From the NCBI RefSeq assembly GCF_011745365.1, contig NW_024468913.1:558001-622000 (forward strand): a DNA stretch of 64,000 nucleotides. The letters are read 5' to 3'. Source of the stretch: Cryphonectria parasitica EP155 (Eukaryota > Ascomycota > Sordariomycetes > Diaporthales > Cryphonectriaceae). Numbering within the stretch: position 1 is the stretch's first letter; every line of letters starts with the position of its first letter. The translations under genes were made by a program, and so were the position numbers. The notes below the pieces were generated by a model. It was not told the DNA's origin, did not search any database, and saw nothing but the letters and a program-made list of their open reading frames with translations. This document shows, piece by piece, positions 4,593-62,129 of this stretch.

Positions 4593-7500
4593 ATGGGAGA
4601 CAAATCGAGCGTCCCAGCTCGGACGCCGGCGAAGACGCCCTCGATGCTCAAAAAGAGTAGCAGTGGTAGCAATAGCGGCTCCCTTCCCTCGTCGGCCGGA
4701 AAGCAGCAGAGCATCTTGGGGTTCTTCTCCAAGACGGCCACGCAGGCGAGTGCCAAAGGAGCTACCCCGTCCTCCAGATCCGCCTCGTCTGCTGCTGCCT
4801 CGAGGGGAGCCAAGACCTTGTCGTCTCCGTGTCTGCAGGAGACAACCTCGAAATCCAACGCCCTGTCCTTCGCAAAGCGACCCTCCACGATCACACCCGT
4901 CCCTAGTAGCGATGCGGCAGAGCCCCTCAGCTCTCAGGAGAACAAAGACGTCATCCAGGTCGACATCAAGGTGCCCAGCGATTCTCTTCCATCTCCTAGC
5001 TCCTCGCCCGTGGTTCCAAAGATCGAGGATTCGGCTCATAGTAGCCCCTCTCGAAAAGTAGGACATTTTCCAGACTGATCGTGGTCTCTCGCAATGCTGA
5101 CAGGCACCTCTACAGGCCAGGAAGGCGATCAACTACGCCGAATCCTCCGAAGACGAAGACGTGATCATGCCGCGTAAGGCGCGTCAGGCACGCACAAAGG
5201 CCCGTGCACGTGCCCCAGTGCTTGATGAGGACGATGAGGACGAGTATGATGGTGGGAATGACGAGATTATCGAGGACGATGATGGTGAGTCTTATATTCT
5301 GCTCGTCTATTGAACCCCCTCCGGGCCAAGGCGTCGCGTGTCACTAACACCAAGCAACAGACGATATGGCCGATTTTGTCGTATCCGACGACTCCGATGC
5401 TCCTGCCCGAGCCAAGAAGCGGAAGCGGCCCTCTACCGCTGCCACGTCCGCCCCTAGAAAGCGACATACCGCATCAAGCCCGCCCGTCTCTACCCATAAA
5501 GTAGACCCAGACGAGGACGAAGACATGTCGGACGGTCTCCCGGCCACTTCCACAGCTCAACAGTGGCGCTTTGACCCGGACAACATCGAGCCGCGGGCTG
5601 AACGTCCCAGAGCTCTGACCTCGAAAGCCAAGACAACCTCTGCGAAGACGAAGGAGAGGGCCTGCGACAAGGAGCCAGAACATCGGCATCGCTGGCTGGC
5701 ACAGCCCGTCGACGCCAATCAAAACCCTCCTGGTCATCCAGACTACGATCCCTCCACCATCTGGGTACCCCCGCACCAGAAATTTTCGGCCTTTGAACAG
5801 CAATATTGGGACATCAAGAAAAACCTCTGGGACACAGTGGTCTTTTTCAAGAAGGGCAAATTCTACGAGTTGTATGAGAACGACGCTACAATTGGCCACC
5901 AGCTCTTCGACCTGAAGCTGACGGACCGTGTCAACATGCGCATGGTCGGCGTGCCTGAGAGCTCCCTGGACATGTGGGTCAACCAGTTCGTCGCCAAGGG
6001 GTACAAGGTTGCTCGTGTCGACCAGATGGAATCGGCACTCGGCAAGGAGATGCGCGAGCGCGACGTAAAAGGCCCGAAGGTGAACGCCAAGGACAAAATC
6101 ATCCGCCGGGAGCTGGCCTGCATCCTCACAGGAGGCACCCTCGTGGACGGAAGCATGCTGCAGGATGACATGGCTGTCTACTGTGCCGCCGTCAAGGAGT
6201 CCATCCTTGAGGGCAAGCCTTCATTCGGTATCGCCTTCGTCGATGCTGCCACTGGCCAATTTTTCCTGTCCGAATTCGAAGATGATGTCGATCTCACAAA
6301 GTTCGAAACGTTCGTGGCCCAGATCTCACCCCGAGAGTTGCTGCTGGAGAAGTCGCACATCTCTCCCAAAGCCCTGCGCATCCTCAAAAACAACACTGCT
6401 CCTACCACGATCTGGAACAATCTCAAGTCCAACAGTGAGTTCTGGGGGTCTGACCAGACCCGCCGAGAGCTTGACTGTAACGACTACTTTGCATCAGAGG
6501 ACGGCCAGGAGCAGGTATGGCCCAAGGTTCTCCAGGAGGCAAGAGACAAGAACTTGTTGATGTCAGCCCTTGGTGCTCTGACGCACTATTTGCGAGTCCT
6601 GAAGTTGGAGAAGAGTCTGCTGTCACAACAGAACTTCAGTTGGTATAGCCCCATCCACAAAAATGGCACTCTCATCCTGGACGGGCAGACACTCATCAAT
6701 CTGGAAATCTTCTCCAACAATGTCAACGGCAGTGCTGAGGGCACCCTATTCCCGCTCCTCAACAGATGCGTCACGCCATTTGGCAAGAGGCTCTTCCGGC
6801 AGTGGGTCTGCCACCCTCTGTGCAACATTACAAAGATCAACCAGCGTTTGGATGCTGTGGATCTTCTGAACACAGACCGCAAGCTCCGTGAGCAGTTCGC
6901 GTCCGAGTTGACGAAAATGCCTGATCTTGAACGCCTCATTTCTCGTATTCACGCTGGTGCGTGTAAACCTGACGAGTTTGTCAAGGTTCTGGATGGATTC
7001 GAGCAAATTGAATATACCATGACGCTCATGAAATCCTTCGGAGAAGGCAATACCTTGGTGGACAAACTCGTCTCCTCCATGCCTAATCTCTCTGAGCCGC
7101 TCGCCTTCTGGAACAGTGCTTTCGACAGGAGGATGGCCCGCGAACAGAAGCTACTGATCCCCGAACGGGGCATCGAGGAGGCCTTTGACAACAGCGTCGA
7201 CGAGATCAAGCGTATCAAGAAGGACCTCGATGCCCTCCTCTCCGAGCAGATGAACAAGCTGAAATGCACGAAGCTCAAGTTCACAGATGTGGGCAAGGAG
7301 GTCTACCAGGTTGAAGTCCCAAAGGCGGTCGAAGTACCCAAGACCTGGCGGCAGATGTCTGCCACCGCACAGGTCAAGCGTTACTACTTTAGGCAACTCG
7401 AGGAGCTCGTGCGGGAACTGCAGGAGGCAGAGGAGACACACTCGCAAGTCGTCAAGGATGTTGCGTCTAGCTTCTTCAGCCGCTTCGACGCGGACAATGA

Positions 7501-8530
7501 GACGTGGCTACAGGCCATCAAGGTCGTGTCCCAACTGGACTGCCTCGTCAGCTTGGCCAGGGCCTCTACAGCCCTGGGGCAGCCGAGCTGTCGTCCTGTC
7601 TTTGTGGACGAGGAGCGGACCGTTGTGGAGTTCGAGGAGCTGCGTCACCCATGCATGCTGAACAGTGTTGACGACTTCATTCCCAATGATATCAAGCTGG
7701 GTGGTAACGAGGCCAAGATTAACTTGTTGACGGGCGCCAACGCCGCTGGCAAATCGACCGTATTGCGCATGGTAAGTCCCTTTGAGAGCTGATAGATTCC
7801 TCTGGTCACGAGCATGAAACTTACCTTCATCTACTAGTCGTGTATCGCGGTTATCATGGCCCAGATCGGGTGCTACGTTCCTGCGGTCTCAGCCCGCCTG
7901 ACTCCAGTGGATCGCATCATGTCTCGCCTCGGTGCCAACGACAACATCTTTGCAGCGCAGTCGACGTTCTTCGTCGAGCTGTCCGAGACGAAGAAGATCC
8001 TGTCTGAGGCAACACCTCGGTCGCTGGTCATCCTGGATGAGCTCGGCCGCGGTACGTCCTCGTATGACGGCGTGGCCGTCGCCCAGGCTGTGCTCCACCA
8101 CATCGCCTCCCACATCGGCTGCGTGGGCTTCTTCGCGACGCACTACCACAGTCTGGCGACGGAGTTCGAGAACCACCCCGAAATTGCGCCACGGCGCATG
8201 CAAATTCATGTCGACGATACCAACCGGCGGGTAACGTTCCTATACAAGCTCGAGGAGGGCGTGGCCGAAGGGTCGTTTGGTATGCACTGCGCTGCCATGT
8301 GTGGCATCTCAGGGAAGGTCATCGAGAGTGCAGAGGCCGCGGCCAAGGCGTGGGAGCACACATCGCGGCTGAAGGAGAGTCTCGAGCGGGCCAAGACGGG
8401 CTGCTATATCCCGCTCGGTGTGCTGAGCGATGTCTCGTCGCTGCTAGCGGGCAGGCAGGACGAGGACGGGAGGAGTGAGGTCGACGAAAGGGGTGTGGAA
8501 GTGCTGTTGAGAGCTATTGAAGCCCTGTGA
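4593..8530 (+). CDS. MSH6: DNA mismatch repair protein MSH6 (MutS homologue)
   Basis: Exons 4593-5057, 5104-5284, 5361-7771 and 7838-8530 give 1249 residues, normal for fungal Msh6. The protein pairs with Msh2 as MutS-alpha in the nucleus and recognises base mismatches and small loops. A PCNA-binding PIP box lies at residues 38-45 (Q38, I41, F44, F45) in a disordered, acidic and basic N-terminal region. The mismatch-wedging Phe-x-Glu is F383-Y384-E385 within GKFYELYE. The MutS connector, lever and clamp follow. Walker A GANAAGKST is near residues 1007-1015 and is split from the next exon shortly downstream. Walker B LVILDELGRGTSS is near 1081-1093, then the ATHYH switch. The exon 2 acceptor could alternatively be 12 nt downstream, at 5116 (also in frame). 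Upstream ACGCG elements suggest cell-cycle control. Confidence 0.97.
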
Positions 8531-26946: not shown

Positions 26947-28652
26947 ATGGACTTTGACCGCAACAATGCAGAGGACAGCTGCATAAAAAACCACCCCTAT
27001 AGAGACACCTGCTCTACCATCAACACACATGGCTTCAATCCTGACGCCTCGGGAGATCTCGAGAAACTCGACTCGCGCCATGACGAGGAAGACGTCTACT
27101 TCCACCAGAAAGAGCACCATAACCACCACAATGATGACAATGATGATGGCAATGGTGGCGCCAACACCGACCTAACGGCCCAGAGAACCACGGCCTCGGC
27201 CTCGACGACTACTATTACCGACGACCATGAGTCCCAGCAGGTGCCCTCGAGTTTCCCAGAGCGAGTGGCATCTCGTATGTCTGCAGCATCGACCCTCACC
27301 TTTCCCGAGGGCGGCCTGGACGGCTGGCTGTCCGTGGCGGGCTCGTTCTGCGCCATGCTGTCCATCTTCGGTCTCATCAACTCGTCTGCCGTCTTCGAGT
27401 CGTACTTCTCAGAGCACCAGCTCAAGGACTACAGCTCCTCTCAGATCGGCTGGGTATTTAGCCTCTACCTGTTCCTGGTCTTCTTCGTCGGTATCTACAT
27501 CGGACCCATCTTTGACCGCCACGGGCCGAGCTGGCTGGTCCCCACCGGCAGCCTGCTCATGGTTCTCAGCCTGATGCTGCTGGGTTTCTGTACGAGTAAG
27601 TGATGACGCGCTTTCTTATTCGCAGTATACATTGTGTGGTACATATTGAAAGATAAGATTCAATACTGACTTGTCCCTCTCATACAGAATACTACCAAAT
27701 CCTGCTCACATACTCTGCCATGGGCGGCCTGGGTGGTGCCCTGCTCAACTCACCAGCTTATGCCACCATCGCTCACCACTTCAACACGCGCCGTGGTTTT
27801 GCCACAGGCATCGCCAGCACTGCAGGCGGAATCGGAGGCATCATCTTCCCCATCATGCTGCAGAACCTCCTGCCTGTACTTGGTTTTGCCTGGAGCACAC
27901 GCATCCTCGGCTTCATCATGCTGGCCCTCGCCGTGCCCTACAATCTGTGGATCAAGGCACGCCTTCCCCCTCGTAAGGACACCGCCACCGGGATCCCCCC
28001 AGGCGGCGGCTGGCGCGGCTATCTCGCCAGGTTCATCAGCTTCCAGCCCAAGTTTGGCGTGTTCCGCAACCCGAGGTTCGCCCTGGCCGCCATAGGCATC
28101 TTCTTCATGGAGTGGGGCCTCTTTGTGCCTCTCACCTTCATTGTCTCCTTCGCCGCCGAGCACGGCCAGAGCGCCACCAAATCCTACATCCTCCTCTCCT
28201 ACCTTAACGCGGGCTCCGTCATCGGCCGCTTCCTGCCCGGCGCCCTCGCAGACCGCTTCGGTCGCTTCAACATCATCATCGTGACCATCGCCCTGTGCTG
28301 CGCCACCGTCCTCGGGCTCTGGCTGCCCGCCGGCGACTCCGAGGCTATGATCATCGCCTTCGCTGTGCTGTTCGGCTTCGCCAGCGGGAGCAATCTCGGC
28401 CTCATCCCCGTGTGCCTTGGCCAGCTGTGCGACTCGCGCGACTACGGTCGCTACATCACCACCGCCAACTTCCTCGCCAGCTTCGGCACCCTGAGCAGCA
28501 CCCCGATCGGCGGTGCCCTGCTTGGCATCAGCGGCGACAAGGGCTGGACGGCCTTGGTTCTCTTCTCCGGCCTGTCTTATGCCATCGCTCTCGTCTGCTA
28601 CGTGTCGGCGAGGGTGCTGGCTGTTGGCTGGAGCCCCAAGATCATCTACTGA
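26947..28652 (+). CDS. MFS transporter, monocarboxylate permease-like
   Basis: Exons 26947-27595 and 27688-28652 join through a split Lys codon (A|AA) and encode 537 residues. I chose the ATG at 26947 (MDFDRNNAED) over one 24 codons upstream because the upstream residues look like translated pyrimidine tract. A long hydrophilic His/Asp-rich N-terminus (HHNHHNDDNDDGNGG) precedes the membrane domain, which begins PEGGLDGWLSVAGSFCAML. The helices and loops (FGLINSSAVFESYFSEHQL, GPIFDRHGPSW, ADRFGRFN) fit the fungal MCT/MCH subfamily. Known members carry carboxylates or riboflavin; no substrate can be assigned here. It should sit in the plasma membrane with 12 helices. The His/Asp-rich leader is a possible metal-binding or disordered element. 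Confidence 0.88.
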
Positions 28653-52067: not shown

Positions 52068-53957
52068 ATGGGTGGCGAAAGGCTCATCAAGTCCGTGGCC
52101 ATTATCGGAGCCGGTGCCTCAGGTATTTGGCCCCTCAAGTGACTTTCATTGACGCAGCTTTGTAAGCTTTTGGCTGAGACTCTGGTACTGCTATAAAAGG
52201 AACAATCGCAGCTGCCGCCCTCAAGGCAGAAAACTATTTCGATCGGATCCAAGTGTTTGAGAGACGGGATTCTGCTGGAGGAACATGGTCAGATTTATTC
52301 CTCTTCATTGACATGGACCGGCCATGTTCTTGCACTACTATTACATCAGGCTGACACCTGGATAGGATATTCGATCCAAGCCCTGGACCGGAACTGCCTA
52401 TTGAGCCAGGCAAACTACCTCCAGAGATCGACCCACCACTGAGTATTCCGAATAATCTCCCGAGGATCACCGCTCCAAGTGAGCAGGAGCGTTATTCACA
52501 GACACCCGTCTACAACTCCTTGACGTGAGCCACTACTACCTATCTCATACGACATACAAGGGCGCCCAATAATAGTACGACACTGACAGTGTATGACTGT
52601 TAAAAGGACAAATGTTCCTGATGTAGCAATGTGTTTTTCCGACGAGAGGTTCGCGTACGGCCCGTTCCCACCTCATCATGTGCCCCGGCAATATCTGGAG
52701 AACTACGTGGCCCGCCACAGGCTCGATGAGCACCTGGTCCTCAACACCACTGTCGAAGACGTGTCTAGGATGCCACCGTCTTCTGGAACGGGCGGGCCCG
52801 AGCGATGGGAGCTGACTCTCCGCAAACACGATGTACTGCGACACGTCGACATATGGTGGACTGAGATATTCGATGCAGTGATCATCTCCAATGGACACTA
52901 CTCGGTTCCATATGTAAGGAATATCGGCCTTTCTCACTCTTCAATTTGCTTGCCTCCTGATATCTGATTTTGATTGAACGTATTTTTCCCTTCCCGTCTG
53001 ACCATCTTATTATCTCAGATTCCCCACGTAGAAGGCCTCGAAGCCTACACGCAGAAATATCCCGACCGTGTAGTCCACTCCAAGTACTACCGCTCGCCCT
53101 CCATCTACAAGAACCAGCGTGTCCTAACTATTGGCAACTCGGCTTCGGGCTGGGACATCATGAACGAGCTCACCACCACAGCAGCTTTGCCCGTGCACAG
53201 CTCACGCCGCCACAAGTCGCCCTTCGAAGGCGACAAGCCCGGCCCTGGCATCGAGTGGAGGCCCGTCATCCGCCGGTACCAAGCCGACGGCACGATCGAG
53301 TTCGAGGACGGGACGACGCTGGGGCCGGACGAGATCGACAGGATCGTCTACTGCACGGGCTACCGGCCGAGCTATCCGTTCTGGAACACGGCGAAAAACG
53401 GGCGGCCCATGTACGACTACGAGGTCGGGAAGCTGGTCAACACGTACTGGCACACGTTCTTCTCGGACTTTTCGACGCTGGCCATCGTGGGGATCCAGAA
53501 GGCGCTCACGTTCCGGAGCTTCGAGTACCAGGCTGTGGCGGTGGCGAGGCTGTTTGCAGGGCGGAACGCGCTGCCGCTGCCGCCTGCGGTGGAGATGCGC
53601 AGATGGGAGGCGGAGCGGCGCGACTGGGTGCTGGAGACCGGGAAAAAGTTTCATGACGTCGAGAGTATGCCTGGGCGGCTGGGCCAGGATACTCTGGTGT
53701 TTCTCGGGTTCCTGTATAGCATGGCTGGGCTGGGCACGCTGAAGGGGGATGGGAGGATACCTCCGGTTCTGAGTCAGGAAGTCCTCTATGCGCTGAGGAA
53801 CATCCACAAGTATCCAACGCCTGGAGACGATCCAGATAAGGAACTGGTGGTCACTAAAGGTGATAAAGTCGGGGGTCAGACTATATCAGACTACGACTAT
53901 CGTTATGAACAGAACGAACTGGATGAGTGGGTGATAGTAGTCGGTAATGGACACTGA
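52068..53957 (+). CDS. Flavin-containing monooxygenase
   Basis: Exons 52068-52122, 52200-52287, 52366-52524, 52607-52913 and 53019-53957 encode 515 residues. The FAD Rossmann motif GAGASG is at residues 14-19 and is split by the first intron. ERRDSAGGTW follows, its Trp codon split by the second intron, whose donor (GTCAGA) is weak but whose placement restores the family motif. CFSDERFAYGPFPPHHVPRQY precedes an ISNGHYSVPYIP segment. The NADPH-binding motif appears as IGNSASGWDI, and the ATG-type motif as YCTGYRPSYPFW. This matches fungal FMO-like enzymes that oxygenate nitrogen or sulfur atoms of small molecules with NADPH. No substrate can be inferred. Expected cytosolic or ER-associated. 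Neighbouring genes do not form an evident pathway. Confidence 0.9.
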
Positions 53958-56968: not shown

Positions 56969-57049
56969 GGTCCTGTGGCGCAGTGGTTAGCGCAACAGCT
57001 TTACATTGAGTCTCGCTGGAGGTCGTCGGATCGTACCCGACCAGGATCA
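56969..57049 (+). tRNA. tRNA-Val(TAC)-like gene with short intron and atypical T-loop
   Basis: Acceptor stem GGTCCTG (56969-56975) pairs with CAGGATC (57042-57048) with one G-T wobble; discriminator A at 57049. D arm GCGC-AGTGGTTA-GCGC (56978-56993) gives a good A box. Anticodon stem ACAGC/GCTGG (56995-56999 and 57015-57019) has one mismatch at the base. The loop is 15 nt, consistent with anticodon TAC at 57002-57004 plus an 8-nt intron (57006-57013). T arm GTCGG-ATCGTAC-CCGAC (57025-57041) has a perfect stem, but its loop departs from TTCRANY, so the B box is weak. A T6 terminator follows at 57060-57065. Sequence ends resemble yeast tRNA-Val(TAC). It may be functional or a recent pseudogene. 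Confidence 0.65.
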
Positions 57050-59984: not shown

Positions 59985-61476
59985 TTTCACACGATGTATC
60001 TGTGTTGACTCTAGGTTGAACTTCTAGAGCCTGTCTGTACTGGGAGACACAGCTTCTCAGTGGATCCTTGTGACGTGATGTCGACGATGTTCAAACGTGC
60101 AACAAGCAAGGAGGCAAGAGGAGAAGAAAAGAGCAGCAATGCACTGTGAGTATAGAGTACGCTGTTCAAGATTTGCAGCTCAACATATGTAAGATGTTAT
60201 TATTGTTCCAGGTTTGGAGTGTTTGTTCGTTTTACGACGATGAGAGTGAGTGCCTGCCCCTCCATGAAAGGTCACTGGTCCCCCACTATAGCAGCAGGTG
60301 TCACGTCACTAGCAGCGGTTGAAGTCGCCTAGCATCCCCCGGTGGAGACCCGCCTAGGGCGGTCTATAGCAAAGTCTTTGGCGACTCTTATCCAGCGCAT
60401 TTACCCGCTCCAATCATTTTCGAGCCCACTGCGTCCCCAACGCCGCGGGTAGCCTGGTGTCTCTGGGTCGAGTGTCGTCCGCCCTAGTACAGCACTTGGT
60501 CAGGATCAGGGGCACAGCAGTCCGTGGCGCTCTGCTGAGGATCACGCGGCGTCCACGTGAAATTGATCTGACCTTTTTCTCCGGAATTTACCATTTCGTA
60601 TCATGGTCGATATTAGCTTAGGATATCATGTGTTTGGTGTTGGGAAGCCGTTCCAGAGGGGCTGAACGGTATGCTGATATAGACGAACGACTGCGATTTA
60701 TATTGAGGCTAGAATTGAAAGAATTGTATGATTCTGGAACTGCATTGTGATAATACTAGTGCGGCCTGGGCTAATGATCTCAAATAACCGAATCCTTGAA
60801 GTCATAGTAGTCTTGCGAGGACTCGACTTGCTCAACGTATTTGGCAAACAAGTCGTTAGCTGATTTCGTTGTGTGAGCAAGGGCTGGTGAATACACTGCC
60901 TTGCTGGACGCATATTCAAGCCATCACCTTCATGAGTATAAAACAGAAGGGGCTGGGGAACAGATCTCCCTTGGCTCTGTACGATTAAACAGTCTAAGCT
61001 GCCTGATTTGGTTTGCCGTTGGGCTTCCTAGGTATGCACCAGCCAATCAGCATACAAGAATTGCTGCTGGCGAGGAGTAGCCACAATGGTGAAATCAGAC
61101 ACTGTTGCTGCTCTCCACGACATCTTTCTGAATGCCGTACGCATATGGTTGAAAACTATTGAAAGCAATCAATAGCAGCCTAACCTCATTATGAAAATAG
61201 AGGAGAAGAGAAATGAGCCACGAATGGGGAAGTCGCTGTAAAGGCCGCAAGGCTTGCCCAGATGATGGCTAGCATCATTGGCACTAAGCTTCGTGTCTGA
61301 TAAATAGTTGAGTACCCAGAAAGTCACAGGTCAATAGATAATCATTTGCATCTTCTTATCTGCTTATACATCAGTGATTTATTACAAGAGTGTACAGGTC
61401 AAGAAAGGAAAAAAAAAAGGGGACGACTGAGCATAAAAAAATAAATAAAAAAGAATCGAAGTATCGACGGGAATTG
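59985..61476. other. Upstream region of xylitol dehydrogenase
   Basis: 1.5 kb with no coding evidence. Contains GGCTAA at 60769-60774 and C-rich motifs near 60335 that could bind the carbon repressor CreA; neither is proven. Confidence 0.45.
61447..61452 (-). terminator. Pol III terminator of tRNA-Lys
   Basis: T6 on the minus strand, 24 bp beyond the discriminator base. Confidence 0.7.
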
Positions 61477-61627
61477 AGCCCGACGTGGGGGTCGAACTGG
61501 AAGTACTGTTAGTAACCATGTTGCAGCGACACTATGAGAGAAGTGACAAACATACCCCACAACCTTGAGATTTCAGAATCGGAAACTCTGTAAGAGTCTC
61601 ACGCTCTACCGATTGAGCTAGCCGGGC
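61477..61627 (-). tRNA. tRNA-Lys(CTT) interrupted by a tRNA intron and a spliceosomal-type intron
   Basis: Read on the minus strand. Acceptor GCCCGGC (61627-61621) pairs with GTCGGGC (61484-61478), discriminator T at 61477. D arm GCTC-AATCGGTA-GAGC. Anticodon stem TGAGA/TCTCA with loop CTCTTA...A and anticodon CTT at 61594-61592. A conventional 19-nt tRNA intron follows position 37 (61590-61572). Variable loop AGGTT. The T stem begins GTGGG (61560-61556). Here 59 nt (61555-61497) interrupt the gene before the T loop TTCGACC and CCCAC complete the arm. Removing both inserts gives a canonical fungal tRNA-Lys. The A box is intact, the B box keeps GTTCGACCC, and a T6 terminator follows at 61452-61447. 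All stems are preserved on both sides of the insert, which argues against simple decay. Confidence 0.88.
61497..61555 (-). other. Spliceosomal-type intron inside the tRNA-Lys T arm
   Basis: 59 nt on the minus strand starting GTATGT, with a perfect TACTAAC branch-site motif (61514-61508), ending TTCCAG. All three match fungal spliceosomal consensus, and 11 nt separate the branch motif from the 3' splice site. The insert sits exactly between T-stem position 53 and T-loop T54, and the orientation matches the tRNA sense strand. Confidence 0.8.
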
Positions 61628-62129
61628 GTCGAAAAGACGCGTTGGTTGAGAATTCGCTCAGAAAAAAAGCTTTATATCGTCAAGGTAATTCAGTAGAGAG
61701 GAAGAAAATTTCTGCATGCGGCGGGTTCCCGGGACCCCACTTGCTGGCGCATACCCCAGTGAGCAGACCACTCCCCCCCCAACACGCACACGCGAGGAAA
61801 CTCCAAAGCGAAATTACAAGTTTGACTCGTAGTCGATATTCTAGCTGGTGAAACAGGACGATATCGTGGTTGCGAGCCGTGACTTTGGCAGGTTCGAGCC
61901 TATACAAAACGACCCTGAGCCCAATATAAGAAATCAGGCCATGGAGTCCTCGATGTTCACGGCGGGCGCTAGCACATGAACAGGCACCAAAAATGGGTGT
62001 ATAATGAAACTGAATTGAGAGATGACATGAACGAGGGTGACAGTCTATGAGTCTTCGGACGCAGACTTATCAGGGCTAAACTTGACACTTTGACCTGACC
62101 GATGTGTCCGGCTCTGCACACCAATGTCT

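Follow-up and report, generated by a model that had tools for sequence, protein, structure and literature searches.

Can a tRNA gene carry an intron of the kind that the spliceosome removes from mRNA precursors? The question is raised by a tRNA-Lys(CTT) gene in a stretch of 64,000 nucleotides from Cryphonectria parasitica EP155, which is referred to below as the window. C. parasitica, the agent of chestnut blight, is a member of the Diaporthales (Sordariomycetes); one protein encoded in the window is 100% identical to MSH6 of strain EP155, and two others point to the same assignment. The introns of tRNAs and those of mRNAs are treated as belonging to separate worlds that are served by separate machineries, and to our knowledge spliceosomal introns occur in genes transcribed by RNA polymerase III (Pol III) but none is known in a tRNA gene. 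An mRNA-type intron is found in the U6 snRNA gene of fission yeast and of several fungi, and the gain of U6 introns in fungi is reportedly the subject of an earlier paper. According to one study, frequent interruption by introns was known, as of 2017, for U3 and U6 alone among small structured RNAs (PMC5832005). Among the matches listed in a search of the open-licence literature, judged by title and the opening of the abstract, none was recognised as describing a tRNA gene with a spliceosomal intron, which is not a proof of novelty.

Results

The tRNA-Lys(CTT) gene occupies 151 nt on the minus strand of the window (61627-61477) and consists of exons of 37, 16 and 20 nt, the features of which are listed in Table 1. 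The original prediction, which was based upon the window alone, placed a 59-nt insert with the signals GTATGT, TACTAAC and CAG between the 5' T stem and the T loop, and both its letters and its coordinates agree with our reading. GTGGG of the T stem precedes the insert and TTCGACC of the T loop follows it; since a shift by one base in either direction loses the GT-AG ends, the junction of the insert is unambiguous. Distinct from this T-arm intron, the gene also has the canonical eukaryotic tRNA intron at 37/38, a separate intron of 19 nt that had likewise been predicted. After removal of the introns, all 21 named stem pairs of the cloverleaf are standard, one of them being G-T. When the Rfam tRNA model was applied with cmscan, the window gene was called a tRNA with its insert included (35.5 bits against a cut-off of 29). 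A covariance comparison with and without the insert had been suggested as a check of the claim that its excision leaves a textbook tRNA-Lys, and C9, a genomic copy in which the same exons and the same anticodon-loop intron occur without the T-arm insert, scored 55.9 bits. ARAGORN made no call at the window gene, even when anticodon-loop introns of 0-200 nt were allowed.

Table 1. Positions of the features described in the text. Coordinates are those of the window except for the U6 intron.
Feature	Coordinates	Strand	Remarks
tRNA-Lys(CTT) exon 1	61591..61627	-	positions 1-37; anticodon CTT = 61592-61594
Anticodon-loop intron, 19 nt	61572..61590	-	at 37/38
Exon 2	61556..61571	-	positions 38-53; T-stem GTGGG at its end
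Spliceosomal-type intron, 59 nt	61497..61555	-	at 53/54, boundary of 5' T stem and T loop
Exon 3	61477..61496	-	positions 54-73: T loop, 3' T stem, acceptor, T73
5' splice site GTATGT	61550..61555	-	same in all three T-arm introns
Branch site TACTAAC	61508..61514	-	branch A = 61509; followed by 12 nt of intron
3' splice site CAG	61497..61499	-	sequence
B box AGTTCGACCCC	61488..61498	-	final AG of the intron plus T loop
A box TAGCTCAATCGG	61609..61620	-	positions 8-19
T-run terminator TTTTTTATTTATTTTTTT, Pol III type	61435..61452	-	sequence
TATAAA-like upstream element	61671..61676	-	putative role
U6 intron	L094:1484-1539 (G000:C4)		locus reading
MSH6 introns (3)	5013-7837		annotated protein
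FMO-like protein introns (4)	52123-53018		annotated protein
MFS transporter introns (2)	27094-27687		annotated protein

To place this gene among its paralogues, the 43.8-Mb genome was searched with the intron-free tRNA as query, which is blind to intron signals, and all six candidates were scored. Each proved to be a tRNA-Lys(CTT) gene, and use of the whole window gene as query led to the same outcome. In this survey of the other copies, which the original prediction had also proposed, the T-arm insert was present in three of the six genes (the window gene, C5, and also C4 and C1a), which lie on three different contigs, and it was absent from the other three (C9, C1b and C2), which match straight through the T arm and have the anticodon-loop intron only. 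By direct reading, the inserts of C5, C4 and C1a, which are 59, 58 and 58 nt long, occupy the identical nucleotide position. The mature sequence is identical across the six genes at 73 of 73 positions, and the anticodon-loop intron is found at one position in all of them; four genes share an identical 19-nt version, whereas in C4 and C2 it measures 22 nt. Likeness between the six loci extends only from about 30 nt before the gene through about 70 nt after it, which indicates that the six genes are dispersed copies; segmental duplication was considered and is rejected on the same ground. Immediately after position 73 (window 61466-61476) all six genes share the trailer CAATTCCCGTC, while their leaders and further flanks differ. 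All six also have T at position 73 (window 61477); the tRNA-Lys of budding yeast has G at this position.

The elements of a functional nuclear tRNA gene, namely an A box, a B box and a T-run terminator, are present in the window gene, where the sequences that we take to be the two boxes were assigned from their customary definitions and consensus. A run of 5-7 T residues lies within 60 nt downstream of each of the six tRNA-Lys(CTT) genes, and the leader of C1a contains TATATAA. An insert at 53/54 would split the B box, but the AG of the intron takes the place of positions 52-53, giving the B box listed in Table 1. A T loop of the form TTCRANNC is found in 54 of the 59 other tRNA genes that were identified in 58 fetched loci (the remaining five do not fit), and the two bases preceding it are GG in 33 of these 54 genes, AG in 19 and TG in two. 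Together, the intron end and the T loop make up a B box of a type that ordinary tRNA genes of this genome also use. A single AG may hence serve both splicing and transcription, and such sharing would explain why an intron at 53/54 is tolerated.

As regards the neighbourhoods of these genes, C4 starts 221 nt past a same-strand open frame with glycosyl hydrolase 3 domains (Pfam), and C1a starts 212 nt past one with a weak alpha/beta-hydrolase Pfam match. Because of these frames, read-through by RNA polymerase II (Pol II) is possible at both loci. Upstream of the window copy, no same-strand frame of at least 100 codons ends within 688 nt, whereas a same-strand frame ends 72 nt upstream of the intron-free C2, so that the neighbourhood does not track the T-arm intron.

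All three T-arm introns begin with the GT donor of a U2-type intron, in the form GTATGT, the fit of the donor being judged against the U1 consensus, and their acceptors (CAG, TAG and CAG) all conform to YAG. A YTAAC branch site is located 12-13 nt before the exon in each of them. The ACTAAC of the window copy fits RCTRAY, while TCTAAC of C4 fits CTRAY only and TTTAAC of C1a fits YTRAY only, and the branch sites of the latter two are weaker than that of the window copy. The fungal branch site is given as RCTRAY at 6-36 nt before the AG in the part of a published account that we cite here, and the distances in the T-arm introns fall inside this range (PMC5832005).

For a test of constraint, the T-arm introns were divided into donor, body, branch, spacer and acceptor, and the bodies were aligned with gaps. 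The likeness of the bodies is at the level of shuffled sequences, equal or higher alignment scores being obtained in a fraction of 0.21, 0.29 and 0.72 of 1000 shuffles, and the end-anchored columns of the donor (6/6) and of the AG (2/2) are all invariant (P ~1e-9 if the columns were free). An ungapped comparison anchored at the 5' end showed seven of 34 interior columns to be invariant versus 2.6 expected (P 0.014), which is a weak trace of common descent. Exons that are unchanged, signals that are kept and a remainder that is lost are what splicing predicts, whereas dead insertions predict otherwise.

The pattern GTANGTN{28,58}YAGTTCRANYC occurs at nine places in the 43.8 Mb, and at 36 when it is read backwards. 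Three of the nine places are the tRNA-Lys(CTT) genes, which pair at 5/5 T-stem positions across the insert, and the other six pair at only 0-2 of the five. No Rfam tRNA match was found at these other six places, an observation of little weight because C4 and C1a were missed by the same search. An exhaustive count of 58/59-mers fitting GTATGT...YTRAC...YAG, which covered the plus strand of 96 overlapping fetched loci (about 313,000 combinations of start and length), found four, all of them copies of a T-arm intron. Among 2,000,000 random draws there were eight matches, which are explained by the T-arm intron itself and from which no background rate can be obtained. Since the insert recurs at the identical nucleotide in two more tRNA-Lys(CTT) genes on other contigs, chance is removed as an explanation, and with three loci on three contigs having the insert at one junction, assembly error is likewise rejected. 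Each T-arm intron matches itself alone in the genome at E values up to 10. Exact scans of viral contigs gave no match, and they are uninformative, as the intron-free control likewise gave none; an exact scan of prokaryote genome contigs, which had no control, also gave no match.

The fission yeast U6 gene, cited in the original prediction as the closest precedent, has a counterpart in C. parasitica. One U6 gene was found in the genome (47 of 3351 candidates scored), and it is split inside the ACAGAGA box by a 56-nt intron, GTGAGT...CCTACTAACAGCCTTTGCAG, its 5' exon having been identified by eye against the model consensus. Because the intron splits U6, the model match runs its 5' part through unrelated sequence. 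The signals of this intron are GTGAGT...ACTAAC...CAG, and the 12 nt that follow the branch A equal the branch distance of the window T-arm intron. Within the U6 intron there is a B-box-like stretch, GCGTTCGATTC; the U6 intron of fission yeast likewise holds a B box. One product of Pol III, the U6 precursor, is therefore presumably already a substrate of the spliceosome in C. parasitica. The U6 intron also holds a tRNA-like stretch, ATCCCAAGGTCGCGCGTTCGATTC, corresponding to a variable loop, 5' T stem and T loop, for which the alignment score against the tRNA genes of the genome was 16 and the maximum among 300 shuffles was 14; by its sequence, the B box of the U6 intron may come from a tRNA. 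Among other small RNAs, no intron-sized insert was seen in the single SRP RNA match (278 nt for 293 model positions; 26 of 319 candidates scored), in the 23 matches listed for 5S rRNA (114-121 nt; 47 of 2301 candidates scored) or, as judged by its span, in the single U3 match (274 nt for 274 positions; 24 of 639 candidates scored).

For comparison, three annotated proteins of the window imply nine mRNA introns of 66-138 nt (Table 1), none of which is as short as the T-arm introns (58-59 nt) or the U6 intron. Five of the nine donors are GTRAG and none is GTATGT, a sample that is too small for GTATGT to be called unusual. The signals of the 138-nt MFS transporter intron (27094-27231) are poor, and this intron may have been annotated wrongly.

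A genome search for tRNA genes, in which 63 of 990 candidates were scored, gave a list of 61 matches that did not include the window gene. Three intron-free tRNA-Lys(CTT) matches were set aside and the other 58 loci were fetched, in which ARAGORN identified 59 genes, all with ordinary T arms, as its method requires. When 32 of these tRNA genes were joined as a query, none of the 41 matches listed was split in the T arm (40 of 70 candidates scored). In this partial inventory (63 of 990 and 40 of 70 candidates), no T-arm intron was seen in any other tRNA. The Rfam tRNA model at its cut-off detects only one of the three genes with a T-arm intron, that of the window, and it misses C4 and C1a even in short stretches, which indicates that such genes are easily missed. 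Two further observations concern other tRNA genes. At 56969-57049 of the window, ARAGORN in bacterial mode called a tRNA-Stop, which became a tRNA-Val(TAC) with an 8-nt anticodon-loop intron when introns were allowed. At L039:139-218 and 300-374, it identified tandem tRNA-Thr(CGT) genes of 80 and 75 nt, the first of which is longer in the anticodon region.

Discussion

The T-arm insert is probably a true spliceosomal intron of the U2 type, and the tRNA-Lys(CTT) gene that hosts it, one of three such paralogues, would be functional, transcribed by Pol III and dependent on both splicing machineries for its product. The original prediction had likewise proposed that the intron is spliceosomal and that the tRNA needs two machineries, and the comparison of the paralogues argues in its favour, with the intron in three of six copies, signals that are alike, intron bodies at shuffle level and identical exons. 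In the scheme that we propose from these sequences, the order of steps included, Pol III would read the window gene from the A box and from a B box that opens with the intron's own 3' AG. The spliceosome would then remove the T-arm intron from the pre-tRNA, forming a lariat at ACTAAC and joining GGG to TTC, and the tRNA-splicing endonuclease and ligase would remove the anticodon-loop intron. The predicted product is tRNA-Lys(CUU), the same molecule that would come from the three genes lacking the T-arm intron. As to their history, the three T-arm introns probably derive from one, which would have spread by gene duplication and diverged except for its splice signals, and the three copies that lack it may reflect either precise loss or an ancestral intron-free copy.

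Four other explanations deserve consideration. That the intron-bearing genes are dead or inactive copies, in which the insertion broke the T loop and from which no tRNA is made, was an alternative that accompanied the original prediction. Three tRNA-Lys(CTT) genes without the T-arm intron do exist, and insertions in the D or T arm, mostly in one of many synonymous genes, are supposed in an excerpt of one paper to mark pseudogenes (PMC4090602). However, the insert is present here in three genes rather than one, the splice signals are retained in all three, and the 73 exon positions have stayed identical while the intron bodies lost their likeness, although decay should strike exons as fast as introns unless gene conversion mends the exons alone. 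Because all three have perfect tRNA exons, we regard inactive copies as very improbable, and the decay of stems or conserved positions that would mark a tRNA pseudogene is seen in none of the six genes. It is also conceivable that the intron is removed from a Pol II transcript, perhaps one reading through from a neighbour, with the tRNA-like segment having another role or being processed to tRNA later. Capped transcripts of Pol II are the usual hosts of spliceosomal introns, and the frames with Pfam matches upstream of C4 and C1a fit this possibility; but these genes have kept both promoter boxes, their T runs and tRNA exons free of defects, the window copy has no such frame close upstream whereas the intron-free C2 has one, and the U6 gene of the same genome carries an intron of this kind too. 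This route is accordingly quite improbable.

If the insert were instead a non-canonical tRNA intron and a substrate of the tRNA-splicing endonuclease, it would have parallels in archaeal tRNAs, where 53/54 is used, and in T-arm introns of nucleomorphs and similar ones in the red alga Cyanidioschyzon, as described in one study (PMC4090602). None of the GTATGT, YAG and branch site present in all three copies is needed by an endonuclease intron, and removal by the endonuclease is extremely improbable. A bulge-helix-bulge at both splice sites, kept among the copies, would be expected of such an intron; to judge from predicted lowest-energy folds, the three precursors differ within the T-arm intron. 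The last possibility is that unrelated spliceosomal introns entered a hot spot in tRNA-Lys(CTT) three separate times in the fairly recent past, by reverse splicing or as introner-like elements; it overlaps with the explanation that we favour and implies the same function. The bodies are not alike above the level of shuffles in the gapped alignment while the exons are identical, as it would predict; against it stand the shared length of 58-59 nt, the shared donor, the nearly equal branch distance and the excess of invariant columns noted above, together with the failure to find a source copy in the genome for any of the three introns. It thus appears unlikely. A recent introner-like gain, which the original prediction had entertained, gains no support from these results, since the three introns differ widely and have no other genomic copy; many near-identical copies would be expected of an introner-like element, and each T-arm intron is single in the genome.

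Among known systems, the U6 introns of fission yeast and several fungi resemble the T-arm intron, as they too are spliceosomal, interrupt a gene transcribed by Pol III and are linked to a B box. U6, however, is a spliceosomal RNA, whereas the host of the T-arm intron is a tRNA with an endonuclease intron of its own, and the T-arm intron ends at the B box while the U6 intron of C. parasitica contains a B-box-like stretch. The introns of fungal U3 snoRNA are also spliceosomal and reside in a small structured RNA, and copies with and without them coexist in some genomes according to an excerpt of one study (PMC5832005), but the RNA and the positions are different. The non-canonical tRNA introns of archaea, Cyanidioschyzon and nucleomorphs are located at 53/54 or in the T arm, and some of their host tRNAs have additional introns; in the portion of the source cited they are discussed in connection with the splicing endonuclease, and in its main text the word stem 'spliceosom' does not occur (PMC4090602), whereas the T-arm intron described here is defined by its GT, branch site and AG.

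For this fungus, it is likely that half of the tRNA-Lys(CTT) genes found need the spliceosome, that their Pol III pre-tRNA holds introns of two kinds, and that an intron at 53/54 is tolerated as one AG is both the 3' splice site and the start of the B box. Since three copies lack the T-arm insert, C. parasitica need not depend on the intron-bearing genes. tRNA finders may overlook genes of this type, as the Rfam result indicates, and others may lie unannotated in fungal genomes. The paired genes, with and without the T-arm intron and with the same product, provide natural test material. If our explanation is correct, the spliceosome acts on Pol III pre-tRNAs, beyond U6 alone, and the supply of tRNA-Lys(CUU) would be partly tied to the capacity of the spliceosome.
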